This document shows positions 520 through 21,098 of a stretch of 21,098 nt of DNA, in pieces (position 1 is the stretch's first letter; each line of letters opens with the position of its first letter). The notes below the pieces were generated by a model, which had not been told where the DNA came from, did not search any database, and was given only the letters and a program-made list of their open reading frames with translations. This DNA comes from a virus. Position numbers and translations under genes: made by a program. Location of the stretch: positions 1 through 21,098 of the IMG/VR virus record IMGVR_UViG_3300017751_000310; one strand, given 5' to 3'.

Positions 520-520
520 T

Positions 521-1084
521 ATGGCTTTATACGGGGCAAAACGAGATATAAGTCTATTTAGACATATAAATCGAGAATTAATAGGCAATATTATTTCTCA
601 GGAATGTGTATATTACAAATTTAAAACGGATGAAACTAAAGTAAATTTATATGGTGAAGCCGCAGGTGCTAAATATTATTATTCTGGCGTAATATTAAGT
701 TGTTTAATTGATCAACAGCCACAATCCTACCCAGATGATGAGCTTGGTGTTCGGTATTATAGAAATGTTGATTTCAGGTTTTTACGAGATGATTTACTTC
801 AAAGAAATCTTGATTTTAATAAAGACTATGATCAGGGAGACTATTTTGGAGCTGACTTAGTTCCACAAGTAGGTGATATAATATTTTATTATGGAGGCTA
901 TTATGAAGTAGATGATATAATAGCTAATCAATTCTTTATGGGTAAAGACCCAGATTATGCTTATGATGAAAATCCAATCAATCCAGGATTAGAAAATTTT
1001 GGTAGTGATTTATCTGTTATATGTAAAACACACTACACACCTGTTAATAAAATACAATTACAAAAGGGGGGAATAAATGGCTAG
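521..1084 (+). CDS. 14: Neck protein / head closure, T4 gp14-like
   Basis: A 187-residue protein with no signal peptide or membrane segment. The central 'PQVGDIIFYYGGYYEVDDI' (about residues 116-134) followed by 'NQFFMGKDPDY' is the hallmark I recognise from gp14-type neck proteins: a beta-barrel segment and then the GKDP turn. Its role would be to complete the head-tail connector together with gp13. There is no clear Shine-Dalgarno before the ATG, which lies one base after the gp13-like stop, so coupling is the likely mode of initiation. The gene ends in TAG and overlaps the next start by 8 bases (1077-1084). T4 gp14 is somewhat longer. Gene order (13-14-15) is the strongest support. Confidence 0.72.
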   Translation: MALYGAKRDISLFRHINRELIGNIISQECVYYKFKTDETKVNLYGEAAGAKYYYSGVILSCLIDQQPQSYPDDELGVRYYRNVDFRFLRDDLLQRNLDFNKDYDQGDYFGADLVPQVGDIIFYYGGYYEVDDIIANQFFMGKDPDYAYDENPINPGLENFGSDLSVICKTHYTPVNKIQLQKGGING

Positions 1085-2060
1085 TAATTTTAGAAAACCG
1101 ATACCAAAAACACAAAAAGAAATATCTAAAGGATTACAAATACCTTATTCTGCTGAATATGGTAATCCTAATGATGCCAATGAAACTTCTCAATATCCTC
1201 CTACAAATCAGGCAAATTTATCTTTTAATAGATCTGAAAAAATGTCATTCAAGGATGATACAATTAAACCATTCTCAGTTGGTATAAAAGATATTGATGA
1301 ATCCATAATGTATTATTTTAATAATGTCATTCAACCTTCAGTAATACAAAACAATGAAAGAGTTCCTGTTCCAATAATATATGGTTCACCTGAAAGATGG
1401 AAATCAATCCAAAAAGATGCATATTATAGAGATAAAAAAGGAGCTATCATGATGCCTATAATAATGTTTAAAAGAGATGGTTTAGAAAAAAACAGAAAAC
1501 TAGCTAATAAATTAGATGCTAACATGCCTAATTTATATACATCTTGGCAAAAATCATATAACAGTAAAAACTTCTACAGTAATTTTAATACACTCAATAA
1601 TAGAGTTCCTACTAAACAATTTATAGCTAATGTAGTTCCTGATTATGTTAATTTAACATATAGCTGTATTATACAAACTTACTATGTAGAACAACTAAAT
1701 AAAATAATCGAAGCTATAAACTATTCTTCAGATTCTTATTGGGGAGACCCCGAAAGGTTTAAATTTATGGCTAGGATAGATAATTTTGCTACGGTAACTG
1801 AATTAGTCCAAAGTCAAGAAAGACTAGTAAGAGGAACATTTACCTTAAAAATGTATGGGTATATAGTACCTGATATTATTCAAAAAGATTTAAGTTCTGT
1901 TAAAAAATATAATGAAAAATCAAAAATAATATTTTCAATGGAAACCGATGCTCCCCCTAACAGATATAAAGCAAACCCCACAACAACTGAAGATGGGAGA
2001 ACTCGAACAAATATTGATGGAGAAAATACAAGAGTAAATTTAAAAGATAATGATATTTAA
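1077..2060 (+). CDS. 15: Tail sheath stabiliser / tail terminator, T4 gp15-like
   Basis: A 327-residue protein. After an N-terminal linker of about 60 polar residues come 'MYYFNNVIQPSV' and 'RVPVPIIYGSPERWK', then 'IMMPIIMFKRDGL'. This is the conserved gp15 pattern, in which the protein sets up the 'RVP..Y.S.ER' strand early. Around residue 205, 'QTYYVEQLNKIIEAINY' matches the later gp15 motif seen as 'IFTRYEDDMFQIVEQI' in T4. T4 gp15 caps the tail and joins it to the neck; T4's protein is about 270 residues, so this one has longer ends. A strong Shine-Dalgarno (AAAAGGGGGGA, 1062-1072) sits four bases before the ATG and fixes the start despite the overlap with gp14. The last 40 residues are polar and probably disordered. 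Confidence 0.8.
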   Translation: MASNFRKPIPKTQKEISKGLQIPYSAEYGNPNDANETSQYPPTNQANLSFNRSEKMSFKDDTIKPFSVGIKDIDESIMYYFNNVIQPSVIQNNERVPVPIIYGSPERWKSIQKDAYYRDKKGAIMMPIIMFKRDGLEKNRKLANKLDANMPNLYTSWQKSYNSKNFYSNFNTLNNRVPTKQFIANVVPDYVNLTYSCIIQTYYVEQLNKIIEAINYSSDSYWGDPERFKFMARIDNFATVTELVQSQERLVRGTFTLKMYGYIVPDIIQKDLSSVKKYNEKSKIIFSMETDAPPNRYKANPTTTEDGRTRTNIDGENTRVNLKDNDI

Positions 2061-2072
2061 TTTTTATTAATG

Positions 2073-2080
2073 TATTTATA
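2073..2080 (+). promoter_or_regulatory. Candidate late promoter box (TATTTATA) before the 915-aa virion protein
   Basis: TATTTATA followed by A, ending 19 bases before the ATG at 2100. A transcript starting about 6 bases after the box would begin right at the Shine-Dalgarno. This is one of seven intergenic copies (others at 4872, 9278, 10982, 18480, 18776, 20547). Its promoter role is inferred from position only. Confidence 0.55.
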
Positions 2081-2086
2081 ACTAAC

Positions 2087-2095
2087 AAAGGGGAG
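2087..2095 (+). promoter_or_regulatory. Strong ribosome-binding site
   Basis: AAAGGGGAG, four bases before the ATG at 2100. Only three genes in or bordering the window have such a strong site: the gp15-like gene, this one, and the gene beyond the right edge. Most others start in A-rich DNA without one, so this gene may be translated more strongly. Confidence 0.7.
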
Positions 2096-2099
2096 TTTT

Positions 2100-4847
2100 A
2101 TGGGAAAAACAAGATTTTTAGATAATGTAGGGGTAAATGCGTTTGGCAATACAATGCCAGAAGCAATTATAACAGCTTCGGGTGGTGCTGGTGATATAAC
2201 TTTCACTAGAGCAAACGGAACAACTTTTATTTTACCCCTAGCAGCCTCAGCTAGCTCAGCTGACGCTTTAATAACGGCTTCAGTAGTTGATAATGTTATA
2301 ACCTTTACTAAAGGGGATTTAACAACTTTTTCAGTAGCCGTAGCAACAGGATCCTCGGGGGAGTTAGAAGGAGTATTTACTAGGGTAGGATCTTCAAGTT
2401 TATTCCAATCAACATCTTCACTAATAATTTCAGGTAGTACTCTATCTACTTCTCCTCTAGTAGGGGTTAACCCAACTTCATCTCAAGGAGCAAATAAATA
2501 TGCATTAGTAGTAAGTGAATCAGTTTGGAATTACAACCATAATGTAGGTGTGCCTACAACCTCTCCATGGAAACAAGATTTAGATGGTACTTTCTTTGAT
2601 AGATTTGACCATAATACCGATGTATCTGAAATATTAAGATATATGGTTGGGGTTTTAAGTGGATCAGCAATAGGACCTGATTTTGCAGACGCTGCCCCTA
2701 ATACTAATACTTGGGATAATGTAACAACAAATTATACAGGACAATCTACAACATCAAAACTAAATTTATTTGAGGGTGTATTAGGTCTTAATTTTGAAAA
2801 TGGAAGATTATCTATAAATTACACTTCTTCAACATATATAGATTTTTCTAAAACTGCTTCAATACGAGAAGCTCAAAATTATTATATCTCAAAAGGTTTT
2901 TTATCTAATAGTGATAGAGGAACTTATGGTAACGATACGGGCACTAACCCATTTAATGGAAATTATGGGAACATACCATTAACAATATTACAAAGTAATA
3001 ATTTTTCTAACTTAACATTTACTTCCACAGCTAATAAAACGGGTAATAGTACTATATTTAGTAATTCTAATTATTTTGGTATGGGAGAACTTCTATCAGG
3101 AAATGCCTACCCATATTCAGTTAAAATAATTTCATCTCAATCTTATAGTGATAATGCTAGTAACCCTACCCCTAATGAAATTAATAACAATTATTTTACT
3201 GCTTCATCTGTAGAATATACAATTTCTGATTTTGGGTCATCTAATGGGTTATTTTTAGGTAAAATTACTCCACCAAATAATCAAATACCAGCAGCATATC
3301 AAGATGGTAGATTTATTAATGTTGTAAGTCCTATAATTGGAAGATTTTATACAAATAAATCAACTAATAGTAACAGTATTTCATCTAGTGGGTATTATAG
3401 AATGTTTGGTACTAAATCAGGTATTAAGTCTGGATCTATGTCTAACTTTGAATTTAAAAATAATTCAAATTCCAATACTCTATTTTACACCCCCAATCCT
3501 TACCAATCAGGCTTTACATCCGTTGGAGCATTAGAAGATATAACAAATTCTCAACCTAATGCTATTATATCTAATGTTAAATTAACAAGGACAGCATTCT
3601 CAGCTACTTCAAGATCCTTAAGTGGAGCTCCTTATTTACAAAACTTAAATTACCAATATAATTTTTCCTCTGAAGTTGCTAATAATTTTGATCCTGTATA
3701 TGGAGCTGATTTTCAGGGTTCAAATATAACTTTAGCTCATTCAAAAACTAATAATTGGGATAGTGTAGGCAACCCTACTTTTACACCAACAATATGTTTA
3801 GTAACAAACGAAGGTGTTCAAACCACAGGAGTTTTAGGAGGAGTATTATCTCAAGATAAAAGCACTCAAAGAAGTAAAGATTCAATTCCACATATAACCG
3901 ATATTTCATATTTATCTTCATCTTATGATTTTTCATTAAATGTTGTTTATAACTCAAATACTAATCGTACTTTATCTTTTACATCTACAGGAAAGAATTT
4001 TAGGGGAACATCAGTAACATCATCAACAATAAACGAAGAATTATATAATGCTTCCTTATATGGTCAAGATCCAAGTAGTGGGAGTATGCAGATTTATACA
4101 AATGCCCAAGGGTATGATAGTAGTACTCTAACAGGGTTTAATGAATATTTTACAGGTGAAAATTTTAGAATTAAAATTACAGATGCACTATTAAATTCCA
4201 CATATGCTGCAGGAGATAAATTTATTACTAACAGTTTTCAAACAAATGATGAAGGAGATAATGTTATAGGAGCAAATGATTTACAAGTAATCCCAGGTAT
4301 ATCACAAGGTAAATTAGTTAAACCTGGTGATCCAACCAATGGATACTGGCTACCAGCATTTAATTCATTAGGATATTCATATTATGCTAGGGCTTTTGAC
4401 ATGAATAATGTTGGAAATACATTTGGTCAACAAAGCACTTTAAAAATAGATTTAGGTGATTCTGGAATAGTGCATTGGGGAGATTTAAGTGGAACTAACA
4501 CAATATCAGCAATAGTTATAATGCAATCATTAACGGCAGCTAGTTTAGGAGGAGGAAATAGTGCTAGGTTTATAGATGTAAAAAATACAACATTCCAACC
4601 ATCCCCAGGATCCCTTGTAGCAAATACTACAGGTTTAAATCCATTTGGAGTAGAAATTGATGTTAGGTCTAATAATGGTAGTGGAAATGGTGTAGAAAAT
4701 GGAATAGGTTCTAACACAAGATTCATAATTCCTTTACTTAGCCCTAGAAATCAAATAATAGATAAAAATAACTCCCAAATAATATTATTAGTAAGGTATA
4801 AAGGAAATCCAACACCTTTAACTCGTATAAATGCTTTTACAAACTAA
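2100..4847 (+). CDS. Large virion adhesin/fibre protein sharing a long C-terminal module with the 4893 gene
   Basis: A 915-residue Ser/Thr/Asn/Gly-rich protein with a single cysteine, typical of surface-exposed phage fibre or decoration proteins. Residues about 25-85 contain two copies of a short beta unit ('ITASGGAGDITFTRANGTTF' and 'ITASVVDNVITFTKGDLTTF'), a unit I associate with marine phage fibres. From about residue 115 to the end the protein parallels the 1124-residue neighbour. Shared landmarks include 'YNHNVGVP', 'FDHNTDVSEILRY', 'SRSLSGAPYL', 'GLNPF' and 'ILVRYKGNPT'. There is no catalytic motif, signal peptide or membrane segment. It is the first gene of the adhesin block and has its own promoter-like box and strong ribosome-binding site. 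Function is inferred (host recognition or capsid/tail surface); the exact location on the virion is unknown. Confidence 0.7.
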   Translation: MGKTRFLDNVGVNAFGNTMPEAIITASGGAGDITFTRANGTTFILPLAASASSADALITASVVDNVITFTKGDLTTFSVAVATGSSGELEGVFTRVGSSSLFQSTSSLIISGSTLSTSPLVGVNPTSSQGANKYALVVSESVWNYNHNVGVPTTSPWKQDLDGTFFDRFDHNTDVSEILRYMVGVLSGSAIGPDFADAAPNTNTWDNVTTNYTGQSTTSKLNLFEGVLGLNFENGRLSINYTSSTYIDFSKTASIREAQNYYISKGFLSNSDRGTYGNDTGTNPFNGNYGNIPLTILQSNNFSNLTFTSTANKTGNSTIFSNSNYFGMGELLSGNAYPYSVKIISSQSYSDNASNPTPNEINNNYFTASSVEYTISDFGSSNGLFLGKITPPNNQIPAAYQDGRFINVVSPIIGRFYTNKSTNSNSISSSGYYRMFGTKSGIKSGSMSNFEFKNNSNSNTLFYTPNPYQSGFTSVGALEDITNSQPNAIISNVKLTRTAFSATSRSLSGAPYLQNLNYQYNFSSEVANNFDPVYGADFQGSNITLAHSKTNNWDSVGNPTFTPTICLVTNEGVQTTGVLGGVLSQDKSTQRSKDSIPHITDISYLSSSYDFSLNVVYNSNTNRTLSFTSTGKNFRGTSVTSSTINEELYNASLYGQDPSSGSMQIYTNAQGYDSSTLTGFNEYFTGENFRIKITDALLNSTYAAGDKFITNSFQTNDEGDNVIGANDLQVIPGISQGKLVKPGDPTNGYWLPAFNSLGYSYYARAFDMNNVGNTFGQQSTLKIDLGDSGIVHWGDLSGTNTISAIVIMQSLTAASLGGGNSARFIDVKNTTFQPSPGSLVANTTGLNPFGVEIDVRSNNGSGNGVENGIGSNTRFIIPLLSPRNQIIDKNNSQIILLVRYKGNPTPLTRINAFTN

Positions 4848-4871
4848 CTAAATAAAATAAAAAGAATAACA

Positions 4872-4879
4872 TATTTATA
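4872..4879 (+). promoter_or_regulatory. Candidate late promoter box (TATTTATA) before the 1124-aa virion protein
   Basis: TATTTATA ending 13 bases before the ATG at 4893, with no Shine-Dalgarno in between. If transcription starts about 6 bases after the box, the leader would be only around 7 bases long. Confidence 0.5.
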
Positions 4880-4892
4880 ATAAACAATTAAA

Positions 4893-7800
4893 ATGAGTGA
4901 ATTTAATAAACCAATAAAATCCAATAGATTACTGCAAAGTAAAAGATATACTATTGCAGAAATTGATGCAGCTGAGGCATATACATCCGTATTTGACCTT
5001 AACACCTCAGAAATATTTACCCAACAATCTCTTATACTTTCAGATAACATTCCTTACTCGGGTAGTAGTCAGGATGGTTCATTTTTATACTCAGGAAGTA
5101 GTAATGTTCCTATTTCAAAATTTTATTACAGGTTCCCATTAACACCATCAGCAGTTAAAATAGAGGGTAATACTAGAAATAATGTATTTTTCTTTCTTTC
5201 AGGTAGTGGATTTACCCCAGGAATATCAACAACCGCGGATCCTCAAATAATCCAACCACAACAACAAACAAGCTTTATATCCAATAAGTATGCTGATACT
5301 TCTTTAACCACAAACAACTCAGAAAACGGTATAAATGATGGTGGAACAGCTTATAATGTAGTAGTATCTAATCAAGCTACTGGCCCAGGAGGTGTATACC
5401 CAACAACAGAGTACCAATTTGATTATAAGACAGGTATTCTCCAATTTCAAGAAAATGCAACATCTCCTACAATATCAACACAAATTTATATAACTGTATA
5501 CCAATATTTAGGTAAAACCTTAGATGGTTTTATTGCTAACCAAGAAGCTTCTGGTTCTGGAACAGGCGCAGGATTTCCATTCTCAGGATCTGCTGAAATT
5601 ACAGGCTCAATATTAATATCAGGAAGTGGTGGGTTAACAGTATCAGGTAGTTCAAATTTTTCTGGTTCTATTAATACTACTTCAATAACAGGAACCAATG
5701 CTACTTTTGATTCAGCTTCCATAGATGTTTTAATAGTAGATACTATAATATCAAGTTCTACTATCCAAACCACAGGCTCTAATACCTTTGGTGATGGAAT
5801 GGAAGATGTTCAAACATTAGTAGGTACTACTAAAATAACAGGTTCTGCTCAAATAACAGGATCTTTAGACATAAGTGGGTCTTTAAGTATCCCTGGTATT
5901 TCAAATGTTTCAGCATCTATTGCCTCAGCTGTAGCTGGTACTGGAATTTTTAATCAAGTAGGAGCAACCGATGTATATAAAACACAAAAACAACTATTAA
6001 TATCTTCTAGTGCACCTTTAATGTCCTCTCCATTCTCAGGATCAAGTCCAACAGTAACTAATGATGGTTCTGATGGAACTGCTACAAAATATTCAGTAGT
6101 ATCATCTCAATCAGGATGGTTTTATAATCATAATGTAGGTGTACCTAAATCAAAAGCATGGAATGATGATTTAGAAGGTTCATTTTTTAATAGATTTAAC
6201 CACAATACAGACACATCGGAAATTTTAAGATATATAGCAGGACTTTTAAGTTCTTCACTACCAGGAGCTGCAGATGCTTCTCCAAACCAGAGAGCATTTA
6301 GTGGTCTCACACCTAATCCCACCAATACTAATACTTTTTCAATCTCAGGATTGATACCACAATCTTCAACTAATAATACTGTTATTTATTCTATAAGTAA
6401 AGGATTTTCATCTAATGGTGGTACTATGTTTGATAATGTTAGTGGAACTATATATGGTAAAGAAGAATACGCTAGGACATTTAGCTCTCTAACATCAGGA
6501 AATACATCAAATTCTTCAAATCCAAGTGATACTCAATTATTTGCTTTAGGAGATATAAACACGCTTGTTAAAGTTTCAGGAAGTTTAAATTTTGTATACC
6601 ATGAAGATACAGGTTTAAATTCAAATATAACTTCAGCATCAGGACAAATAGTTTCAGCAACAGGCGCACCTGGAGCTAATGATATTACAATAGGTGATTT
6701 ACCTGTACCAAATCCTGCAGTACCTGTTACTTTCCAAGACGGAAAATTCTCAACATTATTTAGAGCACCTCTTAAATTTAATGATGCTGCATTACAAACA
6801 AGATTTACTAACCCAACAGCATCAATGGGATACTATGAAATTACCTCTTCAGTAGCTATTGAAAACACTGTTAATGGAGCTGCAACAACATCAAGTGCTC
6901 AAGAAAATAAAACACGTGTATTTTTTGCTAATGAAGATATGGGTAGTACTATTTCAAACAATACAGTGAATATAACAGGAATATCATCAGGTTCAATAGG
7001 AACTCCAACATCACGTTCTTTATCTGGAGCTCCTTATTTATTAACTAATGCTTTCCAAATATTTAGTTCAGCCTCAGGTGTATTTAACCCACTATTTAGT
7101 AACCAAACTACATTGGCTTCTATAACAACAAATACAGGTGGAACTGAAGGAGTTAGTAATCCATTAGATGCAGGAGGAATGAGTAAAGATTTAAGTATGA
7201 GTGGTGGTAAGATTAATACTGCTGAAGATGTAGTATTTGATTCAAGTTTCTCAACTCCAAGAGCTAATAACACAATACCTTTTGAAACTGACACAATTGG
7301 ACTTTCAGGAAGTATAACGTTTACAGCTGCAGATGGTAAAACAAATTTAAGTGCTGGTACAATATCACCTTCTTCATTCACGTTAAACCACAAATACCTA
7401 AGAAGAAATAATACATTTGAATCAGCTAATTCAACTTTTAATTATTTTGATGCTGGAACTTATGGTCAATCTGCGGGAATAACTTTAGCATATTTTGGTA
7501 AATCTCAAGGATTTGATTCAAATAGCACAAATGCGGGATTTCCTCAAACTGAATTATTAACTGGAGAAAGATGGAGAAAAGTAATTAATGATAATTTATT
7601 AACTTCAACTCTAGCAGGAGCAGATGATTTTACAAATTATAATACATACACAATAAATAATTTAGGAGCTAAAGATCTACAGCAAGTACCAGTTAGAGGA
7701 GCTAGTAATGGTGAATTGATAGTACCTGGTGGAAATAAAAAGTACTTTTTAGATACTATAGCGGGAGATGGATATAAGTATTACGCTAGAGTTTATAACT

Positions 7801-10969: not shown

Positions 10970-10981
10970 TTACCTTATTAA

Positions 10982-10989
10982 TATTTATA
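10982..10989 (+). promoter_or_regulatory. Candidate late promoter box (TATTTATA) for the long S74 fibre
   Basis: TATTTATA followed by C, the only copy not followed by A. It ends 63 bases before the ATG at 11053. A start about 6 bases downstream would begin the RNA immediately before the structured leader at 10998-11036. Confidence 0.52.
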
Positions 10990-10997
10990 CGGGAATT

Positions 10998-11036
10998 GTT
11001 GGCCCTCGGGAAGTGGGCTCATATAGAGTAACCAAC
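10998..11036 (+). ncRNA. Structured GC-rich 5' leader RNA (unclassified)
   Basis: In a very AT-rich genome this leader is notably GC-rich. GTTGG (10998-11002) can pair with CCAAC (11032-11036), enclosing CCC/GGG (11003-11005 with 11015-11017; loop about TCGGGAAGT) and CTC-ATATA-GAG (11018-11028). This gives a small three-way junction or two nested hairpins. I do not recognise it as a named riboswitch. The ATG of the fibre gene lies 16 bases after the fold. It could control translation or stability of the fibre mRNA (inference). Confidence 0.45.
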
Positions 11037-11052
11037 CGCAATAAAAAATATT

Positions 11053-12165
11053 ATGCCTAATTGGAAAAAAGTACTAGTATCCGGCAGTAATGCTACATTA
11101 AACCATATCACATCATCGGGTAACATAAGCTCAAGCGGATATATCTCAGCATCATTTTTCAGTGGTGATGGATCTCAATTAAAAAATCTACCCTCATCTG
11201 GAGGAAGTGTTTTTAAAACTGGATCAGCACCCCAAATTACTCCTAGTATACAACCTATAGCAGGTTTAAATACAGCATCAGGAAATTTCTCAAGTGTATT
11301 AGGAGGAAAAAAAAATAAGTCAATATCTAATTTTTCTAGTATTGTAGGTGGTTATTATAATTACATTACAAAATCAGCTTATTCAAGTATAGCTGGAGGA
11401 TATAATAATTCTATTTGTATTAGCCAATTTGGGGGTAATAATACCATTGTTGGAGGTAATTACAATTATATGCAGGGTAATACCTTGAATAGTAATACTA
11501 TTAATGGAGGATATTACAATTATATAAAATCTACTTCCAATATCACATCATATACAACAATAGCAGGGGGTAGTTATAATGGCATAGATAGTACAGGTGG
11601 TAATCAATTAAGCCATGCAACTGTTGGAGGTGGATATTGTAATAGGATTTATAAAAATTCTGGTGCTTCAACTATAGCAGGGGGATTTGATAGTTGTATA
11701 TCATCTTCACAACGAGCAACAATTGCGGGTGGAGCGCTGGGTTTCATTCATAATAGTAGAGAAAGTACTATAGGTGGAGGTTGTGAAAATTTAATCAATA
11801 ATAATAATTTTATACCTGGTGAAGGTCAAACATCAGTTGGCAAAGCTTCTACTATAGCAGGAGGAAAATGTAATGTTATTACTAATGTATATAGTTTTAT
11901 AGGTGGAGGTAAACAAAACATAATATCAAGTTCTTTTTCAAATATAGGAGGGGGATGCAATAACGTAATATCGGGTAGTAATCTTGAATCTGGAAACTAT
12001 GGTTGTTTTCAAACTATAGCAGGAGGAGAAAATAATAAAATTTTAGGAAATTCTTCACATAATTTTATTGGAAATGGAAAAAATAATATAATTTTTCATT
12101 ACAATGATAATTATGGAGCAAGTTCTTATAGCAATATTGTAGGAGGAAAAAATAATAAAATTTAA
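11053..12165 (+). CDS. Long beta-roll tail fibre, N-terminal part (ends at in-frame TAA)
   Basis: 370 residues up to a TAA at 12163-12165. It begins 'MPNWKKVLVSGSNATLNHIT', the attachment-type N-terminus shared with the 9376 gene, followed by 'ISASFFSGDGSQLKNLPSSG', a common fibre linker. From about residue 78 it is a chain of 14-25 residue units of the form (S/T)-I-x-G-G-x-x-N-x-I, which should stack into a left-handed beta-roll like the YadA head. The stop falls in the sixteenth unit; the same frame then continues with more units and an S74 chaperone through 15027. Without that chaperone this product probably cannot trimerise normally (inference). The downstream frame is unchanged, so a single substitution or a read-through stop explains it better than an indel. 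No Shine-Dalgarno; the start follows the structured leader. Confidence 0.75.
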   Translation: MPNWKKVLVSGSNATLNHITSSGNISSSGYISASFFSGDGSQLKNLPSSGGSVFKTGSAPQITPSIQPIAGLNTASGNFSSVLGGKKNKSISNFSSIVGGYYNYITKSAYSSIAGGYNNSICISQFGGNNTIVGGNYNYMQGNTLNSNTINGGYYNYIKSTSNITSYTTIAGGSYNGIDSTGGNQLSHATVGGGYCNRIYKNSGASTIAGGFDSCISSSQRATIAGGALGFIHNSRESTIGGGCENLINNNNFIPGEGQTSVGKASTIAGGKCNVITNVYSFIGGGKQNIISSSFSNIGGGCNNVISGSNLESGNYGCFQTIAGGENNKILGNSSHNFIGNGKNNIIFHYNDNYGASSYSNIVGGKNNKI

Positions 12166-12185
12166 ACTTCAGGCGACGGCGCTTG
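12163..12185 (+). other. In-frame TAA followed by a GC-rich hairpin
   Basis: The TAA (12163-12165) is followed after four bases by CAGGCG (12170-12175), loop ACGG, and CGCTTG (12180-12185): a 6-bp stem with one G-U pair. A stop followed closely by a stem is the layout of stimulated read-through signals, though TAA is the least leaky stop and the spacer is short. Chance or a sequencing change is possible. Confidence 0.4.
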
Positions 12186-12657
12186 TCATAGTATAGTAGG
12201 TGGTACTAATAATTGCATTGAGGGAAGTAATTATGGTTCTTTTATAGGAGGAGGAGTAGGTAATAGAATTGCAGGTGGTGATAGTAGTAAAACTATAGTT
12301 GGTGGAGAATTTAATTTTAATGAGGGTAGATATGCTACAATAGCAGGAGGTTCGGGTAATTGTATAACCGGTTATTATAGTACTTTAGTAGGTGGATATG
12401 GAAATATTACCAAGGGTTCTGCAGATACGGTATCAGGAGGAAAGTATAACGAAACTAATGGACAATATTCAACGATTGGTGGGGGGTATAATAACATAAT
12501 TTTTAAAAATTATGCTAATCAATCATCTAATACTATAGTAGGGGGAGAAAGTAATCATATAATAGGAGAAGGTAGTATTCAGGGGGCCCATGCAGGGAAT
12601 AGTATTTTAGGTGGGTGCTACAATAATGTATCAGCATCTGCATTACCAGAAGGCACT
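12166..12657 (+). other. In-frame continuation of the beta-roll fibre between the stop and the next ATG
   Basis: These 492 bases contain no stop in the frame of the fibre and encode about nine more beta-roll units ('SIVGGTNNCI', 'TIVGGEFNF', 'TIAGGSGNCI', 'TLVGGYGNI', 'TIGGGYNNII', 'TIVGGESNHI', 'SILGGCYNNV'). The stretch is therefore coding in character, not intergenic, and joins the two annotated halves (11053-12165 and 12658-15027) into one 3975-base gene. Confidence 0.85.
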
Positions 12658-15027
12658 ATGGATGTTTGTAATAATATTATAGGAGGTCGAAATAATAAAA
12701 TACATAATGCTCAAGATTCTGGTATATTAGGAGGAAAAAGTAACTGTATAACCCACAATAATTCTTTTACTATAGGATCAGATATTTGTTCTACTAGAAC
12801 GGATACACTTTTTGTAAATAATATATGTTTATATGGTAGTAATGGAAGTAATGGTCAAATTTTAGGAGGCGCTAATATTGTTTTAGAAGAGGGCACATTT
12901 GGAACAGCTACTACAGTAATAAATGATAATATTTCATCTAGTGGTTATCTTAAAATGGAGGGAGCTATAACAGCATCCGCAGATATAAGTTCAAGTGGTA
13001 CTATAACAGGAAATAGTTTTATTAAAGGAGGAGGTACATCTGCACAATTTCTAAAAGCAGATGGTAGTGTAGATTCTAGTACTTATTTAACAAGTGTAGG
13101 TACTATAAATTTAACTTCGGATGTAACCGGTATTTTACCCGTACCAAATGGTGGAACTGGAGTTAATACAGTAACATCAGGTAGAATATTAATTGGGAAT
13201 GGAACTTCTGCATTAGCAACAGATTCAGGGTTTACATATTCACAAAATACATTAACGGCTGCGACAGCTTCTGTTAAACTTCTAAAAAATAATTCAGGTG
13301 GAGATTTTATTATTGACGGTAATGGAGAAGATATTTATATTACAAGTTTTCTTACTGCCCAAGGAGGGATAGATATACCTACGGGATTTAATTTAAATGT
13401 TCAAGACTTAACATCAGGTAATGTAGTAATAGTAAGTAGTGGTGGTGGTTTAGCAGACACAGCAGAGTTTACATATAACACATCCAATAAATTACTATCA
13501 GCACCTACAGCATCATTTGATCATTTAATAGTAAGCCAAGTAATTTCATCTTCTGTCATTAACACTTCAGGATCCAACATATTTGGAGATGAAGCTACAG
13601 ATACTCAAACATTAAATGGTTCAGTAATATTAGGTAATATAACTGGAGCCACTGAAACTAAAGCTTTATTTATAGATAGCTCTAATACTATTAAAAAAAG
13701 AACACTTCAAGCTAATGCATTTACATCTACAACAATCCCAGTAATTGCTAGTACATCAGTAACGGATTTAAGCGATGTAACATCAGCAGGTTCAGGTATT
13801 ATTATTACAGCCGCAGAAAGAACAGCAATTGGAACTAATACAACAGATATTTCAACTAATACCAGTGATATTTCAACTAATACAGGCAACATTTCAACTA
13901 ACACAAGTGGAATTTCATCAAATACTAGTGCTATATCAGGAAAAGCAGCATCTGGAGCAAATAGTGATATTACTTCACTTACAGGTTTAACTACAGCTTT
14001 AAGTGTTGCTCAAGGTGGTACAGGAGCAACTACTCTTGGAGCCTTTTTAATGGCTGGTAATGATTTATCTGAATTAAATGATCCTGGCACTGCTAGAGAG
14101 AATTTAGAATTAGGAGGTATGGCTACACAAGCTAATACTAACGTAAATATTGATGGTGGTTCTATTACAGGAATTACAGATTTAGCAGTAGCAGATGGTG
14201 GTACAGGAGCAGGTACAGCTTCAGGCGCTAGGTCAAATTTAGGAGCTGCTAAATCTGGAGCTAATACAGATATTACTTCACTTACAGGTTTAACTACAGC
14301 TTTAAGTGTTGCTCAAGGTGGTACAGGAGCAACAACATTAGATGAAATTCCATTATCTTCTTTTGATGATGATTTAAATAGTACTTATGTAGAATTAACG
14401 AATGCACAAACTATCAGTGGAACCAAAACATTCTCAGTAGCTCAAAAATTTTCTACAGGAACTGTTTCTGTTCCTAGTATATCATTTAATAGTAATAATG
14501 TATATACAACTGGATTTTATTTATCAAACCCAAATGAAATATCTATATCACGAGCTGGGGTTCAAGCTTTTAAATTTGATTCTAATGGTTTACAATCACT
14601 ACAATCTGGAACATCTAATTTTTCTGGAGATGTAATAATATCTTCTCATTTACAATCTCATTGTTTAGGAGTAGGTACTACAGCATCAACAACACAAGGT
14701 GAAATTAGAGCTACTGGTGATATTATAGCAAATTATTCATCAGATAAAAGATTAAAAGAAAATATTAAACCTATTTCAGGTGCTTTAGACAAACTCTTAC
14801 AAATGAGTGGTGTAACTTTTGATTGGATAGAAAAAGAAGAAGTACATTCTCATAAGGGACATGATGTAGGGGTAATAGCACAAGAAGTAGAAGCTGTACT
14901 TCCAGAAGTAGTTGTTACAAGAGATAATGGTTATAAAGCAGTTAACTATGAAAAAATAGTCCCATTATTAATTGAATCTATTAAAGATTTAAAAGCTGAA
15001 ATTGACGAATTAAAAAAATCTAAATAA
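12658..15027 (+). CDS. Long beta-roll tail fibre, C-terminal part with peptidase S74 autochaperone
   Basis: 789 residues counted from ATG 12658, which is only the first ATG after the TAA; the true frame begins at 12166 and belongs with 11053. It opens with the last beta-roll units, then fibre-shaft segments ('GGTSAQFLKADGSVDSSTYL', 'GILPVPNGGTGVNTVTSGR'). Five heptad-like 'ISTNTSD' repeats (about 13840-13950) look like a trimeric coiled coil, and two 'VAQGGTGATTL' modules follow. The end is a peptidase S74 intramolecular chaperone: 'SDKRLKENI' has the catalytic Ser at 14740-14742 and Lys at 14755-14757 (S and K five apart, as in endosialidase), then 'GVIAQEVEAVLPE' and a C-terminal helix. S74 domains trimerise the fibre and then cleave themselves off, here releasing about 95 residues. 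AGAAGG at 12648-12653 could allow an internal start. The TAA overlaps the next ATG by one base. Confidence 0.85.
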   Translation: MDVCNNIIGGRNNKIHNAQDSGILGGKSNCITHNNSFTIGSDICSTRTDTLFVNNICLYGSNGSNGQILGGANIVLEEGTFGTATTVINDNISSSGYLKMEGAITASADISSSGTITGNSFIKGGGTSAQFLKADGSVDSSTYLTSVGTINLTSDVTGILPVPNGGTGVNTVTSGRILIGNGTSALATDSGFTYSQNTLTAATASVKLLKNNSGGDFIIDGNGEDIYITSFLTAQGGIDIPTGFNLNVQDLTSGNVVIVSSGGGLADTAEFTYNTSNKLLSAPTASFDHLIVSQVISSSVINTSGSNIFGDEATDTQTLNGSVILGNITGATETKALFIDSSNTIKKRTLQANAFTSTTIPVIASTSVTDLSDVTSAGSGIIITAAERTAIGTNTTDISTNTSDISTNTGNISTNTSGISSNTSAISGKAASGANSDITSLTGLTTALSVAQGGTGATTLGAFLMAGNDLSELNDPGTARENLELGGMATQANTNVNIDGGSITGITDLAVADGGTGAGTASGARSNLGAAKSGANTDITSLTGLTTALSVAQGGTGATTLDEIPLSSFDDDLNSTYVELTNAQTISGTKTFSVAQKFSTGTVSVPSISFNSNNVYTTGFYLSNPNEISISRAGVQAFKFDSNGLQSLQSGTSNFSGDVIISSHLQSHCLGVGTTASTTQGEIRATGDIIANYSSDKRLKENIKPISGALDKLLQMSGVTFDWIEKEEVHSHKGHDVGVIAQEVEAVLPEVVVTRDNGYKAVNYEKIVPLLIESIKDLKAEIDELKKSK
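13951..14030 (+). repeat. 80-bp direct repeat in the fibre shaft, copy 1 (copy 2 at 14254-14333)
   Basis: TCTGGAGC onward recurs 303 bases downstream with few changes. It encodes the module 'DITSLTGLTTALSVAQGGTG' twice in the same frame. Confidence 0.82.
14254..14333 (+). repeat. 80-bp direct repeat in the fibre shaft, copy 2
   Basis: Second copy of the 13951-14030 unit, followed by a different segment ('LDEIPLSSFDDDLNSTYVEL'). Confidence 0.82.
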
Positions 15028-16436
15028 TGGCACTACCAGAAGAAGGACCATTATCTGCAAGTCAAGTAGCTACTGAATTTGGAGTATCTCAAACCAGTAT
15101 TAGTTTTCAAAATTTAGGAAATTATGTTGGAATTGAACCTGGTGAAGATCCAGTTACTCTACCAGATAGTTTTTATGGTCAAGCAGGAAATACTCCAACT
15201 ATATTAACAAATACCCCATCTAGTATTACTTCAACAGGTATGACTTTAGGCGCTTACATTTCAAGTGTAGGATCTTCTGCTGTAACTAATAGAGGATTTT
15301 ATTTTGGAACTAATTCAAACTATGCCTCAAATACAAAAACCCAAGTTGGATCAGGAGGAGGAGGCTATACACTAGCTAAAACTGGTTTAACAGCAGGTAC
15401 AACTTATTATGTTACAGCATATGCTATAAATAGTCAAGGTGAAGCAAGAGGTTCAACAGTTAGTCAAGATACTACTGGAGGAACAGCTACTTCAGGTTCT
15501 GTAATGAGATATGGTTCTACAGATAGAATGTCTATTACTAATAGAATAATTTCTCCTAGTACCGAAGAACCCACTACAGGTATAAGATTAACAAGTACTT
15601 CCACTTTCACCTTAAATTTTTGGGTAAAAGCTGGGTGGACTTCTGCTTTAAGCTCACAAGGAAGACATCAATTTCTGTGGGGAGTATCTGCTAATGCACA
15701 AGACTCAACTTCAACCAATTATACTACTAACGTTTATAATAATAATTGGAGAATGTACTATGATGAAGCGCAGAATAGAGTTACTTTTAGCTTTTTAGGA
15801 AAAACATCAACAGGTGCAAATGCATATACCGATAATTTTTGGTGGCTTCATAAAACAGGAACAGGCAACGCAGCGGTTCAAACTGGATTAGGTTCTACTT
15901 ATTGGTCAAATACTAACAGAGGTGATGTAAACGATAATGATTTTTGTATGATAACTGTTACATATAATGGTAGTATGTCTCAATCAAATTTAAAAATGTA
16001 TTGGAATGGAAGTGACATAGGAACAGCTTACTACGCTAGTGGTCGAGTTTCTGGAACCCCTCTTATAGATACCACCCAAGTTAGACTTCAAGCATTATTA
16101 GGAACACCATATGGTCCGAATGGTACATTAACTGGAACAGGTGATCAAACTGCTGGTTATTTTGGAGGTAATGGAAACACATACATAGATCAATATAGTT
16201 TATGGGATAGTGCATTATCCTCAACGGCGGTATCAAATTTATATAATGAAGGTGCAGGAGGTTCAATATCAACAACAGAACAACCTGAAGGGTTAATAGT
16301 ATATTATAATATGAACTCAAATTACCAAACCTCATCTCCTAAATCTTTTTCACCTGTATGGCCTACTTCAAATGGAGAATTTTATATAAGTGGTTCTTCG
16401 GATTTTGGTTCTGGTACTAATACTGTAGATGGATAA
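15027..16436 (+). CDS. Lectin-like tail fibre protein (FN3-like and LamG/ConA-like domains)
   Basis: A 469-residue protein. Residues 1-20 ('LPEEGPLSASQVATEFGVSQ') form a short N-terminal motif common in phage tail fibre proteins. Residues about 56-148 look like a fibronectin-III-type fold: an 'ITSTGMTLGAYIS' strand, 'NRGFYFGTN', then 'LTAGTTYYVTAYAINSQGEA'. Residues about 190-408 fit a LamG/concanavalin-like sandwich: 'FTLNFWVKAGW', 'NWRMYYDEAQNRVTFSF', 'FCMITVTYNG', 'LKMYWNGSDIGTAYY', and the closing 'YIDQYSLWDSALSSTAVSNL'. Such domains bind sugars, so this is a strong candidate receptor-binding tip. ATG overlaps the stop of the S74 fibre (TAATG), tying the two proteins to one transcript. 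No signal peptide is visible. Confidence 0.78.
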   Translation: MALPEEGPLSASQVATEFGVSQTSISFQNLGNYVGIEPGEDPVTLPDSFYGQAGNTPTILTNTPSSITSTGMTLGAYISSVGSSAVTNRGFYFGTNSNYASNTKTQVGSGGGGYTLAKTGLTAGTTYYVTAYAINSQGEARGSTVSQDTTGGTATSGSVMRYGSTDRMSITNRIISPSTEEPTTGIRLTSTSTFTLNFWVKAGWTSALSSQGRHQFLWGVSANAQDSTSTNYTTNVYNNNWRMYYDEAQNRVTFSFLGKTSTGANAYTDNFWWLHKTGTGNAAVQTGLGSTYWSNTNRGDVNDNDFCMITVTYNGSMSQSNLKMYWNGSDIGTAYYASGRVSGTPLIDTTQVRLQALLGTPYGPNGTLTGTGDQTAGYFGGNGNTYIDQYSLWDSALSSTAVSNLYNEGAGGSISTTEQPEGLIVYYNMNSNYQTSSPKSFSPVWPTSNGEFYISGSSDFGSGTNTVDG

Positions 16437-16448
16437 AATTAAAATACT

Positions 16449-16724
16449 ATGAAATATTATTATATGATATCAATGGGTGAATTTTGGAAATTAGACCCAT
16501 CTTTAATAAGTATAATTGCCCAAAGGTGGACAAAAGATTCTATATTAATTGAAATATCAAAAGAACTTTCTATTTATGATGAGCAATTTGATAATATAGA
16601 TGAAATGTGTAATTTTACAATCCCAAATGGATTTTGGGAATTACTTAATGAAGGAACACCTTTTGAACCTTACATCCCAGAAATAGATGATCCCATTTTA
16701 CGAGGAGAAGTTGGCCCCCAATAA
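16449..16724 (+). CDS. Small acidic protein, function unknown
   Basis: A 91-residue protein starting 'MKYYYMISMGEFWKLDPSLI', rich in Asp, Glu and aromatics, with a proline-rich acidic C-terminus ('PFEPYIPEIDDPILRGEVGP'). It has no transmembrane segment or recognisable motif. It starts 12 bases after the lectin-like gene with no promoter box between, so it is probably on the same transcript. A role as a fibre assembly helper would fit its position but nothing in the sequence shows it. ATG 16449 gives the longest frame; ATG 16464 and 16473 are alternatives. Confidence 0.55.
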   Translation: MKYYYMISMGEFWKLDPSLISIIAQRWTKDSILIEISKELSIYDEQFDNIDEMCNFTIPNGFWELLNEGTPFEPYIPEIDDPILRGEVGPQ

Positions 16725-16760
16725 TATTTTTATTATATTAATGTTATATTTAAAAGGTTT

Positions 16761-17648
16761 ATGGGTCAATATACAATATTCCACATTGAGGGAGGATTAG
16801 GAAAACATATAACATCAACAGCAGTCGCTCGTTGTATAAAAAACAATCATCCTGACAGAAAATTAATAGTAGTTTGTGCTTACCCTGAAATATACCTAAA
16901 TCTAAGGTTTGTAGATAGGGTATATAGAATAGGAACCACCCCATATTTTTATGACGATTATATTAAGGGTAAAGACACTCTTATATTTAAACAAGAACCT
17001 TATTTCACCACAGACCACATTGTAAAAAGAAAACCATTAATTCAAAATTGGTGTAATTTATACAACTTAGAATATAATAATGAAATGCCTGAGTTGTTAT
17101 TTAATGTTAGACAAAAACAAATAGGTTTTAATAGATGGCAACGAGAAAAACCTATAATGCTTATTCAATCCAATGGGGGTCCTTTAGGAGATGCACAAAC
17201 TACCCCTTACTCTTGGACAAGAGATCTACCATACCAAAATACCTTAGACATAGTTAACCATTTTAAAGAAATTTATCATATCATTCAAATATGTAGGGAC
17301 GATAGTAATATTATCCCTGGTATAGAATCAATAAATAAACCATTACTTAACATGGAATTATTTAGTTTGCTATTAGTTAGTCAAAAACGTTTATTTATAG
17401 ATTCTTGCATGCAACATGCGGCATATGCTTTAAATTTACCTTCTATTGTATGTTGGATAGGCACCTCACCTTCAATCTTTGGGTATGATTTACATGAAAA
17501 TATACAAGCAAACATACCTGAAGGAGCAAAACTACCCGATAGTTATCTATTTGATTTTGGGTTTCAGGGTTCAGTGTATGAATGTCCTTTTATAGATGAG
17601 GAAATATTTGACTCAAATCAATTAATTAATACTTTAAAGTTATCATAA
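16761..17648 (+). CDS. GT9-like (heptosyltransferase-type) glycosyltransferase
   Basis: A 295-residue cytoplasmic protein with a GT-B look. The N-terminal nucleotide-binding-type half begins 'YTIFHIEGGLGKHITSTAVA', with Gly 11, 12 and 14 in the loop, then 'NHPDRKLIVVCAYPEI'. The C-terminal half has 'IDSCMQHAAYALNLPSIVCW' (about residues 213-232) followed by 'GTSPSIFGY'. That matches the 'DSGPMHLAAALGVPTVALFG' signature of glycosyltransferase family 9, with Cys-Met-Gln replacing Gly-Pro-Met before the conserved His. Known members transfer heptose or a related sugar in LPS core synthesis. The substrate here is unknown. AAAAGG (16752-16757) is a possible ribosome-binding site. The stop overlaps the sulfotransferase start by one base (TAATG), so the two enzymes probably act together. 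Confidence 0.78.
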   Translation: MGQYTIFHIEGGLGKHITSTAVARCIKNNHPDRKLIVVCAYPEIYLNLRFVDRVYRIGTTPYFYDDYIKGKDTLIFKQEPYFTTDHIVKRKPLIQNWCNLYNLEYNNEMPELLFNVRQKQIGFNRWQREKPIMLIQSNGGPLGDAQTTPYSWTRDLPYQNTLDIVNHFKEIYHIIQICRDDSNIIPGIESINKPLLNMELFSLLLVSQKRLFIDSCMQHAAYALNLPSIVCWIGTSPSIFGYDLHENIQANIPEGAKLPDSYLFDFGFQGSVYECPFIDEEIFDSNQLINTLKLS

Positions 17649-18460
17649 TGGAAAAACTATTTTTTCAATCATCATTACCACGCTCAGGATCAACACTATT
17701 ACAAAATATAATGGGTCAAAATCCAGATTTTTATACTACACCAACATCGGGAATAATAGAATTATTATACGCTGCAAAAGAAAGATATACTAATGCTTCT
17801 GAATTCAAAACCCAGGATAAAAAAGCAATGGAACAAGCCTTTTTATCTTTTTGTGGTGGTGGGATACATAATTACTTTGAATCTTTAACAGATAAAAAAT
17901 ATGTTATAGATAAAAGTAGAGGATGGTTAGGCTTTCAAGGTTTTTTAAATTCTATCCACCCTAACCCAAAAATTATTTGTATGGTTAGAGACCCTAGAGC
18001 TATATTTACTTCTTTTGAAAAAAAGTTTAGAGCAAATCCTCTTTCACAAGTACATACTGCAACTATAAATAAAGGGTACAACACAACAGAAAAAAGAATA
18101 GATCATTGGATTCAAGATCCTCCTATAGGACTTACACTTGAAAGGTTATATCAAGCTTTAAAAGAAAACTATACTTCAAAAATGCTTATTCTTAGGTTTG
18201 AAGATTTAACATTCAACCCTCAAAAAGAAATTGAAAAAGTATACAATTATCTAGAATTACCACAATTCAAACATGATTTTAATAATGTAGAACAAGTTAC
18301 CCATGAAGATGATACCTTCCATGGTATATATGGTGACCACCAAATAAGGCAACAAGTAAAACCAGTTAAAAGTGATTATAACCAAATTCTAGGAGTTGAC
18401 GCTGCAAATTGGGTCAAAAATAGATATCAATGGTTTTACGATACTTTTAATTATAGTTAA
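17648..18460 (+). CDS. PAPS-dependent sulfotransferase
   Basis: A 270-residue protein with both PAPS-binding signatures. The 5'-phosphosulfate loop is 'SLPRSGSTLLQ' (P11-R12-S13-G14-S15-T16) at the N-terminus. The 3'-phosphate motif is 'MVRDPRAIFTSF' (R114 and S122 are the expected contacts), followed by the late 'LILRFEDLTFNPQKEIEKVY' seen in Sulfotransfer families. The length is usual for a single-domain cytosolic sulfotransferase. It would move sulfate from PAPS to a hydroxyl, plausibly of a sugar, given the coupled glycosyltransferase upstream. PAPS would have to come from the host. The target (fibre, host polysaccharide or metabolite) is not shown by the sequence. No signal peptide or membrane segment. 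Confidence 0.87.
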   Translation: MEKLFFQSSLPRSGSTLLQNIMGQNPDFYTTPTSGIIELLYAAKERYTNASEFKTQDKKAMEQAFLSFCGGGIHNYFESLTDKKYVIDKSRGWLGFQGFLNSIHPNPKIICMVRDPRAIFTSFEKKFRANPLSQVHTATINKGYNTTEKRIDHWIQDPPIGLTLERLYQALKENYTSKMLILRFEDLTFNPQKEIEKVYNYLELPQFKHDFNNVEQVTHEDDTFHGIYGDHQIRQQVKPVKSDYNQILGVDAANWVKNRYQWFYDTFNYS

Positions 18461-18479
18461 TTTTTAAACAAACAATTAA

Positions 18480-18487
18480 TATTTATA
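18480..18487 (+). promoter_or_regulatory. TATTTATA box only 3 bases before an ATG
   Basis: TATTTATA ends at 18487 and the ATG of the 86-aa gene is at 18491. If this is a promoter of the usual geometry, RNA would start at or inside the start codon. It could serve the sheath genes further downstream, make a leaderless message, or not be a promoter at all. Confidence 0.4.
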
Positions 18488-18490
18488 AAC

Positions 18491-18751
18491 ATGGCAGAAA
18501 AAACCAAAAATCCAGTTTTAACAAAAGAAGAAATAGAAAATTTAAATTCGTTACAACAACAACAAAATAATTTAATTTATAATTTAGGTCAAACTGAATA
18601 TCAATTAAAAGTTTTTGAGGACAGAAAAAAAAATATTTACCAAAACTTACAAAACTTAGAAGGTAAACAAACCGAATCAGCTCAAGAAATAGAAAACAAA
18701 TACGGACAGGGATCAGTAAATCTAGAGAACGGCGAATTTATTAAAGACTAA
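18491..18751 (+). CDS. Small coiled-coil protein upstream of tail sheath, function unknown
   Basis: An 86-residue protein. Residues about 11-70 are a Gln/Glu/Lys-rich coiled coil ('LTKEEIENLNSLQQQQNNLI' and onward to 'QEIENKYGQGSVNLENGEF'). Small proteins ending in a 'KYG.G..NLE.GEF' turn recur in T4-like phages of aquatic bacteria, as far as I recall; their function is unknown to me. It has no in-frame ATG after position 1. The direct neighbour downstream is gp18, so a role in tail or sheath assembly is plausible (inference). Confidence 0.65.
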   Translation: MAEKTKNPVLTKEEIENLNSLQQQQNNLIYNLGQTEYQLKVFEDRKKNIYQNLQNLEGKQTESAQEIENKYGQGSVNLENGEFIKD

Positions 18752-18775
18752 TCGCATTTTTAAAGACTTCTGTCG

Positions 18776-18783
18776 TATTTATA
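18776..18783 (+). promoter_or_regulatory. Candidate late promoter box (TATTTATA) for tail sheath
   Basis: TATTTATA followed by A, ending 22 bases before the gp18 ATG at 18806. It has nearly the same geometry as the box before gp19. Confidence 0.55.
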
Positions 18784-18805
18784 AACAAAATAAACATATT
18801 ATAAA

Positions 18806-20530
18806 ATGGCAGAAGTACTTTTATCCCCCGGCGTATTAGCAAGAGAAAATGATCAATCTTTTCTCACATCTCAACCAGTACAAGCTGGAGCAGCAATATT
18901 AGGTCCAACTGTAAAAGGACCAGTTGGTATACCAACTATAGTTACTACATACTCAGATTACCAAAACGTATTTGGTGCTAAAATAGTAAGTGGTAGTTCA
19001 GAATACACTTATTTAACTTCTATAGCAGCTTATAACTACTTCCAACAAGGAGGAGATTCATTATTAGTAACTAGAATAGTTAGTGGTTCTTATACTGAAG
19101 CTACTAGTTCTAAGATTCTTAATGAAGAAAATATTTCATCATTTACTTTAGAAACTTTATCTGAAGGAGCTAATCAAAATAGTAGTTCTTCATTAGGTAC
19201 ACAAGGACAACTATCAGCAGGAACTGCTGATAACATTAGATGGGAAATTGCATCTCCAAATACAGCATCAGGAACATTCGCATTACTTATTAGACAAGGT
19301 AATGACATTACAAATAACAAAACAATATTAGAAACTTGGGCAAATTTATCTTTAGATCCAAATTCAACTAATTACATTGAAAAAGTAATAGGTAACGCTA
19401 AACAATCAGTTGATACTGATGGAACTGAATCTTACATAAAATATTCAGGAGAATATGCTAATACTTCAAGATATGTAAGAGTAAAATCCGTATCTACACC
19501 AACTTTAAATTATGTAGACAATGCAGGTTTTGCAAAATCTGAATTTACTTCTTCAATACCATTAGCATCAGAAGGAGCTTTTGGTGCAGCTATAGGTAAA
19601 GCATTTGGTTCAGGAGCACCTGCTAATTTTTATGGAGATATTAACGATACTAATACTCAAGGAGTAAAAGGTAGTGATTATGTAAATTCAATTAATTTAT
19701 TAGCTAATCAAGATTTATTCCAATATAACTTAATAGTAGCCCCAGGTTTAACAAAAGATATGAGTGTAAGTGGAGGAGCATCATCCTTAACTACATTAAT
19801 AGATAATGCTCAAACAAGGGGAGATAATTTAGCTATTATAGATTTAAAAAATTACGGCTCAGGAATTAACACAGTAACAGCAGCAGCGGATGCAATAGAT
19901 TCTTCATATGCAACAGCATATTGGCCATGGTTACAAACAATTGATCCAGATTTAGGATCTAGAGTTTGGGTACCAGCTTCAACAATGATGCCAGGTGTAT
20001 TTGCCTTTAACGATAAAGCAGGAGAAACATGGTTTGCACCTGCAGGTTTAAGTAGAGGTGGATTAACAACTGTTATTAGAGCAGAAAGAGCTTTAACAAA
20101 TGGTAATAGAAATACTTTATACGAAAATAACGTTAACCCAATAGCTACATTCCCTAACACAGGAGTAGTAGTATTTGGACAGAAAACACTACAGAAAAGA
20201 CCAAGTGCTTTAGATAGAGTAAATGTTAGAAGATTATTAATTTCTCTTAAGAATTTCATTTCACAAATAGCAGATAATTTAGTATTTGAACAAAATACAA
20301 TAGCTACAAGAAACAATTTCTTAAGTCAAGTAAACCCATATCTAGCAAGTGTACAACAAAGACAAGGATTATATGCTTTTAAAGTAGTAATGGATGATAG
20401 TAATAATACACCAGATGTCATAGACAGAAATCAATTAGTAGGACAAATTTATATTCAACCAACTAAAACAGCTGAATTTATTTACCTAGATTTTAATGTA
20501 TTACCAACTGGAGCTACTTTCCCAGCATAA
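18806..20530 (+). CDS. 18: Contractile tail sheath protein, T4 gp18-like
   Basis: A 574-residue protein. The N-terminus 'EVLLSPGVLARENDQSFLTS' and then 'AGAAILGPTVKGPVGIPTIV' is the sheath signature. The mid-region 'YWPWLQTIDPDLGSRVWVPA' and 'AGETWFAPAGLSRG' leads into the conserved C-terminal domain, with 'RRLLISLKNFISQIADNLVF' and the closing 'GQIYIQPTKTAEFIYLDFNV'. T4 gp18 is 659 residues; this shorter form is like those of cyanophage-type relatives. It polymerises around the gp19 tube and contracts on infection. It has its own promoter-like box and no strong Shine-Dalgarno. The antisense frame inside it is a shadow. Confidence 0.97.
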   Translation: MAEVLLSPGVLARENDQSFLTSQPVQAGAAILGPTVKGPVGIPTIVTTYSDYQNVFGAKIVSGSSEYTYLTSIAAYNYFQQGGDSLLVTRIVSGSYTEATSSKILNEENISSFTLETLSEGANQNSSSSLGTQGQLSAGTADNIRWEIASPNTASGTFALLIRQGNDITNNKTILETWANLSLDPNSTNYIEKVIGNAKQSVDTDGTESYIKYSGEYANTSRYVRVKSVSTPTLNYVDNAGFAKSEFTSSIPLASEGAFGAAIGKAFGSGAPANFYGDINDTNTQGVKGSDYVNSINLLANQDLFQYNLIVAPGLTKDMSVSGGASSLTTLIDNAQTRGDNLAIIDLKNYGSGINTVTAAADAIDSSYATAYWPWLQTIDPDLGSRVWVPASTMMPGVFAFNDKAGETWFAPAGLSRGGLTTVIRAERALTNGNRNTLYENNVNPIATFPNTGVVVFGQKTLQKRPSALDRVNVRRLLISLKNFISQIADNLVFEQNTIATRNNFLSQVNPYLASVQQRQGLYAFKVVMDDSNNTPDVIDRNQLVGQIYIQPTKTAEFIYLDFNVLPTGATFPA

Positions 20531-20546
20531 AAATTAAAGAATTAGA

Positions 20547-20554
20547 TATTTATA
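20547..20554 (+). promoter_or_regulatory. Candidate late promoter box (TATTTATA) for tail tube
   Basis: TATTTATA followed by A, ending 22 bases before the ATG at 20577. Tail tube is needed in many copies, which fits a separate promoter in a 46-base gap. Confidence 0.55.
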
Positions 20555-20576
20555 ACAAGAAATAAATTAGAACAAC

Positions 20577-21065
20577 ATGCCAGTAATAGATCCAAACGAA
20601 ATATTTTTTACCGCTTTTGAACCAAAGCAAGCCAATAGGTTTATCCTTTATATGGACGGTATACCAAGCTTCATTATTAAAGGAGTTAGTGCAGTATCAC
20701 TAACACAAGGTGAAGTAACATTAAACCACATTAACATCCTTAGAAAAGTAAAAGGTAAATCAGTATGGAATGATGTTACAATGACATTATTTGACCCAAT
20801 AACTCCATCAGGAGCTCAAGCAGTAATGGAATGGGTAAGATTAGGACATGAATCTGTAACTGGTAGAGATGGTTATTCCGATTTCTATAAGAAAGATTTA
20901 ACAATCAATGTATTAGGACCAGTAGGTGATATTGTTTCAGAATGGATATTAAAAGGTGCATTCATTAAAGAATCTACATTTGGAGATTACAACTGGGATA
21001 CTGAAAACGAAGCAAAACAAATAGAATTAACTCTAGCAATCGATTACGCAGTATTAAATTTCTAA
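20577..21065 (+). CDS. 19: Tail tube protein, T4 gp19-like
   Basis: A 162-residue protein, the size expected for gp19 (163 in T4). Conserved features are 'QANRFILYMDGIPSFIIKGV' at residues 18-37, the beta core 'TLNHINILRKVKGKSVWNDV', 'MTLFDPITPSGAQAVMEW', and the C-terminal 'GAFIKESTFGDYNWDTENEA' followed by 'IELTLAIDYAVL'. It forms the inner tube through which DNA passes, surrounded by gp18. It follows gp18 directly, as in T4. Confidence 0.97.
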   Translation: MPVIDPNEIFFTAFEPKQANRFILYMDGIPSFIIKGVSAVSLTQGEVTLNHINILRKVKGKSVWNDVTMTLFDPITPSGAQAVMEWVRLGHESVTGRDGYSDFYKKDLTINVLGPVGDIVSEWILKGAFIKESTFGDYNWDTENEAKQIELTLAIDYAVLNF

Positions 21066-21085
21066 AAATAATTAAATATTTTATT

Positions 21086-21093
21086 AAGGGGAG
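21086..21093 (+). promoter_or_regulatory. Strong ribosome-binding site of the next gene (start beyond the window)
   Basis: AAGGGGAG, the same core as at 2088-2095, five bases before the right edge. T4 gene order suggests the portal protein (gp20) follows, but nothing of it is visible. Confidence 0.6.
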
Positions 21094-21098
21094 CTTGG

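Follow-up and report, generated by a model that had tools for sequence, protein, structure and literature searches.

The window analyzed here is the entire 21,098-base IMG/VR virus record IMGVR_UViG_3300017751_000310, which is probably a genome fragment. By tail sheath its closest cultured relatives are the Flavobacterium phages vB_FspM_immuto (54%), and homologues of genes 1, 521, 1077, 8351, 9376, 10572, 10766, 11053 and 18491, of the sheath and of the tube are found in immuto in identical order. Since the structural cluster is thus arranged as in immuto, the interrupted gene that begins at 11053 occupies the place of immuto gp219, and on sequence grounds it is the tail fibre gene of an Immutovirus-like phage. 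Also present amid the structural genes is a sulfotransferase-family gene (17648-18460; PF13469, E 9.5e-22), whose neighbour, gene 16761, accompanies it in the loci L075, L085, L110 and L239.

The fibre frame, which like the other parts of this gene, its leader and the next gene lies on the plus strand, extends over 1324 codons from 11053 to 15027: 370 sense codons (11053-12162), an in-frame TAA at 12163-12165, 953 further sense codons and a final TAA. The 5' part encodes an MPNWKK N-terminus and the first part of a GGxxN beta-roll, and ends mid-roll. The TAA falls in a turn right after a roll motif (IVGGKNNKI), and the roll resumes immediately 3' of it with IVGGTNNCI, so that GGxxN repeats flank the stop on either side. 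An earlier note on this DNA had described a fibre frame of this length split by a single TAA, with one repeat type on both sides and 2862 stop-free bases after it, and each of these points is borne out. From 12166 to 15027 there is no same-frame stop before the terminal TAA, while the other two forward frames over this interval contain 96 and 122 stops; at the local base composition, 953 open codons would arise by chance with a probability of ~5e-37. Furthermore, codon-position composition is similar on both sides, with a GC3 of 0.13 upstream of the TAA and 0.14 in the downstream roll. Because the frame is the same before and after the interruption, a substitution or balanced indels are required and a single indel is insufficient. 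This supports the note's view that a substitution was responsible, with balanced indels formally fitting as well.

All of the domains that would complete the fibre lie 3' of the TAA. The remaining beta-roll (12166-12723) is followed by a roll end-cap, ILGGKSNCITHNNSFTIGSDICSTRTDTLFVNN (12724-12822), a fibre shaft with repeats (12823-14739) and an S74 intramolecular chaperone domain (14740-14913), which, as the note had stated, is encoded only downstream (PF13884, E 2.5e-19, 69.7 bits against a Pfam cutoff of 22). The S74 region also matches PDB 6f45 (E 7e-9), with alignment of the SSDKRLKENI segment, and the domain may cleave itself. The next structural gene (15027-16436) starts with an ATG that overlaps the final TAA of the fibre gene (TAATG).

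The roll consists of tandem repeats of ~15 residues with a GGxxN core, as in rolls of the UspA1/YadA type. A profile built from the window and 11 relatives matches the UspA1 head structure PDB 3pr7 with an E value of 9.2e-34. The window roll searched alone gave no significant Pfam match; other members match LbR_Ice_bind and UspA1_rep. By sequence, these comparisons place the roll with the left-handed beta-rolls of the UspA1/YadA type, and it is predicted to form a trimer. AlphaFold2, applied to the roll as a monomer with an arbitrary residue substituted at the stop, predicts continuous beta-structure through the stop position, where block pLDDT values are 78-92; the mean pLDDT of the model is 75. 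A Foldseek search with this monomer model gave no match at E <= 0.001.

The comparison with homologues that the earlier note had suggested points to a gene that is normally in one piece. A pattern scan of viral contigs for the roll recovered at least 120 stretches. Among the matches listed, 93 roll ORFs have a natural 3' end, and only the first half of the window gene ends mid-roll with a same-frame continuation. None of the other 92 has a same-frame mid-roll stop, and the conservation of the stop that was looked for as a sign of programmed readthrough was therefore not found among them. Many of the intact rolls close with a cap like ILGGxxNxxxHNxSFIIGSxITSxxxxTTFVNN, the counterpart of which sits after the stop in the window; caps are described here without counts, as strict patterns missed too many of them for a reliable tally. 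A candidate second in-frame interruption, in L220, was rejected as two complete genes side by side. As a separate observation, another GGxxN roll gene (L210, 3903-4760) contains two apparent frameshifts and is either a pseudogene or affected by indel errors.

An intact relative is the fibre of L159 (IMGVR_UViG_3300024316_000060, minus strand, 10699-6728), a single unbroken ORF of 1323 aa. Like the window gene it combines an MPNWKK N-terminus, a GGxxN roll, a cap and a C-terminal S74 domain, and it has the same TAATG overlap with the following gene (MALP...) and the same type of RNA leader, described below. It differs in having a long region ahead of the main roll, and its identity to the window protein is 57% in S74 and 34-38% in roll segments. 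The intact state of L159, along with the absence of the stop from the other rolls, indicates that the ancestral fibre gene was most likely one ORF.

Just 5' of the ATG at 11053 lies a conserved structured RNA leader (10994-11043). It comprises a closing stem in which UAUUA-UUGG pairs with CCAA-CCG-UAAUA, a CCC/GGG hairpin, the invariant element GGGAAGUGG and a variable hairpin with a covarying stem. In an alignment of 15 distinct sequences, standard pairs fill 96.2% of the pair cells, and both sides have changed in 9 of the 16 pairs. The covariation score is 0.405, compared with 0.148 in shuffles (0/500) and at most 0.123 when the structure is slid along the alignment; the scored alignment was fitted to the structure, and the first MAFFT alignment showed the same picture. 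The folding energy of the window sequence is unexceptional (z 0.21), and the case for the leader thus rests on covariation.

A covariance model of the leader was run over ~2.5 Mb of loci, and every strong match lies directly before an MPNWKK gene. The model recovers all 17 loci picked by the protein pattern alone, some of which are near-duplicates. The leader was found ahead of every MP[N/S]WKK fibre gene examined (the window, L020, L022-L025, L028, L029, L034-L036, L053, L077, L124, L159 and L202), and it was absent before the MA-x-WKK paralogues of the same loci. L263-L265, L270 and L271 give weak matches (21-25 bits). It is also present in cultured Flavobacterium phage immuto, before gp219 (L274, 15893-15958; 46 bits, E 1e-11). 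No Rfam family reaches threshold for this leader, which we regard as a candidate new cis-regulatory RNA. The likeliest guess is that it controls the fibre gene at the level of translation or of the transcript.

For the stop itself, the explanation that we consider probable, though well short of assured, is a recent or segregating nonsense mutation in a normally one-piece fibre gene. One substitution would have turned a sense codon into TAA within a turn of the trimeric beta-roll, and translation would then halt at 370 aa. The fragment would carry the virion-end N-terminus and a partial roll. Lacking the end-cap, the shaft and S74, it would not be expected to trimerise, and the phage would have lost the fibre or make far less of it.

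Several observations bear on the age of the change. The S74 end shows a purifying pattern relative to L004, a comparison of 291 codons in which dN/dS is informative in S74 only. There are 14 nucleotide changes in the last 110 codons, with 7 synonymous and 6 nonsynonymous codons, and the dN/dS that rests on these 14 changes is 0.05-0.26 depending on the method. In addition, a random substitution downstream has a ~4.5% chance of producing a further stop, and none is present. Constraint at the S74 end, together with the lack of an added stop or frameshift, suggests from small numbers, and modestly, that the change is recent or at low frequency, or an error.

Loss of the fibre may be tolerable to the phage, because the close relative L038 has the same flanking genes with no fibre cassette between them. 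In L038 the homologue of gene 10766 ends at 3108 and that of gene 18491 begins at 3142, so that the cassette corresponding to window 10970-18490 is missing between them. Its relatedness to the window is 84% in gene 10572, 91% in the C-terminal part of gene 8351 and 74% in the sheath. From this the fibre cassette looks optional, with the qualification that L038 is one 5.9-kb contig, that it may carry a fibre elsewhere and that its junction could be misassembled.

The main rival to a nonsense mutation is a consensus or assembly error, in which the TAA stems from a base that was miscalled or mixed and the fibre gene is intact in the phage; we judge this a lesser but appreciable possibility. The window is a single metagenomic contig, and ~4.7% of single substitutions in the fibre gene yield a stop. 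Peptide-pattern scans, and a degenerate pattern that spanned the stop and left its codon free, found no near-identical copy of the stop site, and gene 4893 used as a probe found no near-identical relative; with no second sequence over the site, an error is possible. Furthermore, contigs of near relatives break at or near the fibre gene (L237 at 15260, L239 at 14959, L004 and L037 inside the shaft), and this clustering of contig ends hints at strain variation or difficult assembly.

Set against an error is the low background rate indicated by L237 (IMGVR_UViG_3300017752_000858), whose positions 1-5839 correspond to window 15260-21098 and are identical at 5836 of 5839 bases (99.95%). By this agreement L237 belongs to the same population as the window, and base errors are rare within the overlap, which starts 233 bases past the fibre gene and leaves the stop outside it. 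The three differences are confined to a 44-bp stretch (16765-16808) at the beginning of gene 16761. In addition, the sole exact repeat at the stop site is ~15 nt, and repeats of this size are below the usual assembly k-mer length.

The earlier note had listed four causes without ranking them. Two of them, a nonsense mutation of the ordinary kind and an error in the consensus, are now favoured. Controlled production of short and long fibres is disfavoured because the stop is unconserved among the roll ORFs, the short product would be capless and end mid-coil, no unusual RNA structure was found near the stop and 492 nt separate the stop from the next in-frame start. In favour of programmed readthrough of the TAA, the downstream frame is wholly open and its S74 end is constrained. 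Such readthrough often goes with a stimulatory structure, and a 6-bp GC-rich hairpin begins 4 nt past the stop. This hairpin is unremarkable, however, as its 50-nt energy is equalled or bettered by 78 of 1313 gene windows and the 101-nt z-score is -0.62. Overall we think programmed readthrough improbable. A related proposal is that termination at the mid-roll TAA leaks, perhaps in combination with control by the leader, so that a minority of fibres would have a complete roll, the shaft and the S74 tip; its chances appear slimmer still.

Restart of translation, giving a 370-aa N-terminal and a 789-aa C-terminal polypeptide that assemble together, is very unlikely. An in-frame ATG at 12658 is preceded by AGAAGG, but it is the first start (ATG, GTG or TTG) downstream of the stop and lies inside the roll, so that about nine coils would go untranslated; the intact relatives are, moreover, single ORFs. 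Decoding of the TAA as an amino acid, through a reassigned code or a suppressor tRNA encoded by the phage, can be given hardly any weight: alternative codes are known in some phages, for example the reading of TAG as glutamine in crAss-like phages (PMC9523058), but TAA terminates 15 of the 17 gene units of the window (the other two end in TAG), as the earlier note had counted in arguing against reassignment, and the window contains neither an internal TAA in another gene nor a tRNA gene. Two further candidates were rejected: a bypass of the T4 gene 60 type, as the coding roll continues directly after the stop with no non-coding gap, and a diversity-generating retroelement, as the window has no repeat of the stop region that resembles a template.

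If the stop is a nonsense mutation, it represents a further case of loss or diversification of a host-range gene in phage populations. For metagenomic fibre ORFs more generally, read-level variation should be checked before such a pair is annotated as two genes. Readthrough, if true, would be an unusual phage route to two fibre forms. The leader deserves more attention than the stop: it is linked to one member of a pair of paralogous fibre genes, which raises a new question that can be tested.

Comparisons with known systems place these features in context. The GGxxN-type roll of the window fibre is like that of the UspA1 head domain (PDB 3pr7, 3ntn); UspA1 is a bacterial trimeric autotransporter without S74, whereas the window gene encodes a phage fibre with S74. 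A second known system is gp219 of Flavobacterium phage vB_FspM_immuto_2-6A (QQO91898.1), annotated as a putative tail fiber-like protein, which shares with the window fibre its position in the cluster and its RNA leader. It starts with MPSWKK, and it differs in being an intact protein of 587 aa in which no GGxxN roll was seen and the C-terminal part is of another type. With respect to the interruption, near-identical T5-like phages have premature stops in a tail-fibre gene with no reported effect on host specificity (PMC5816814), and the stf gene of lambda is disrupted by a frameshift (PMC10721106). Although these are cultured isolates with other fibre types, and lambda arrived there by a frameshift whereas the window would have done so by a nonsense mutation, in both cases fibre genes have been broken by point changes in phages that are otherwise viable.
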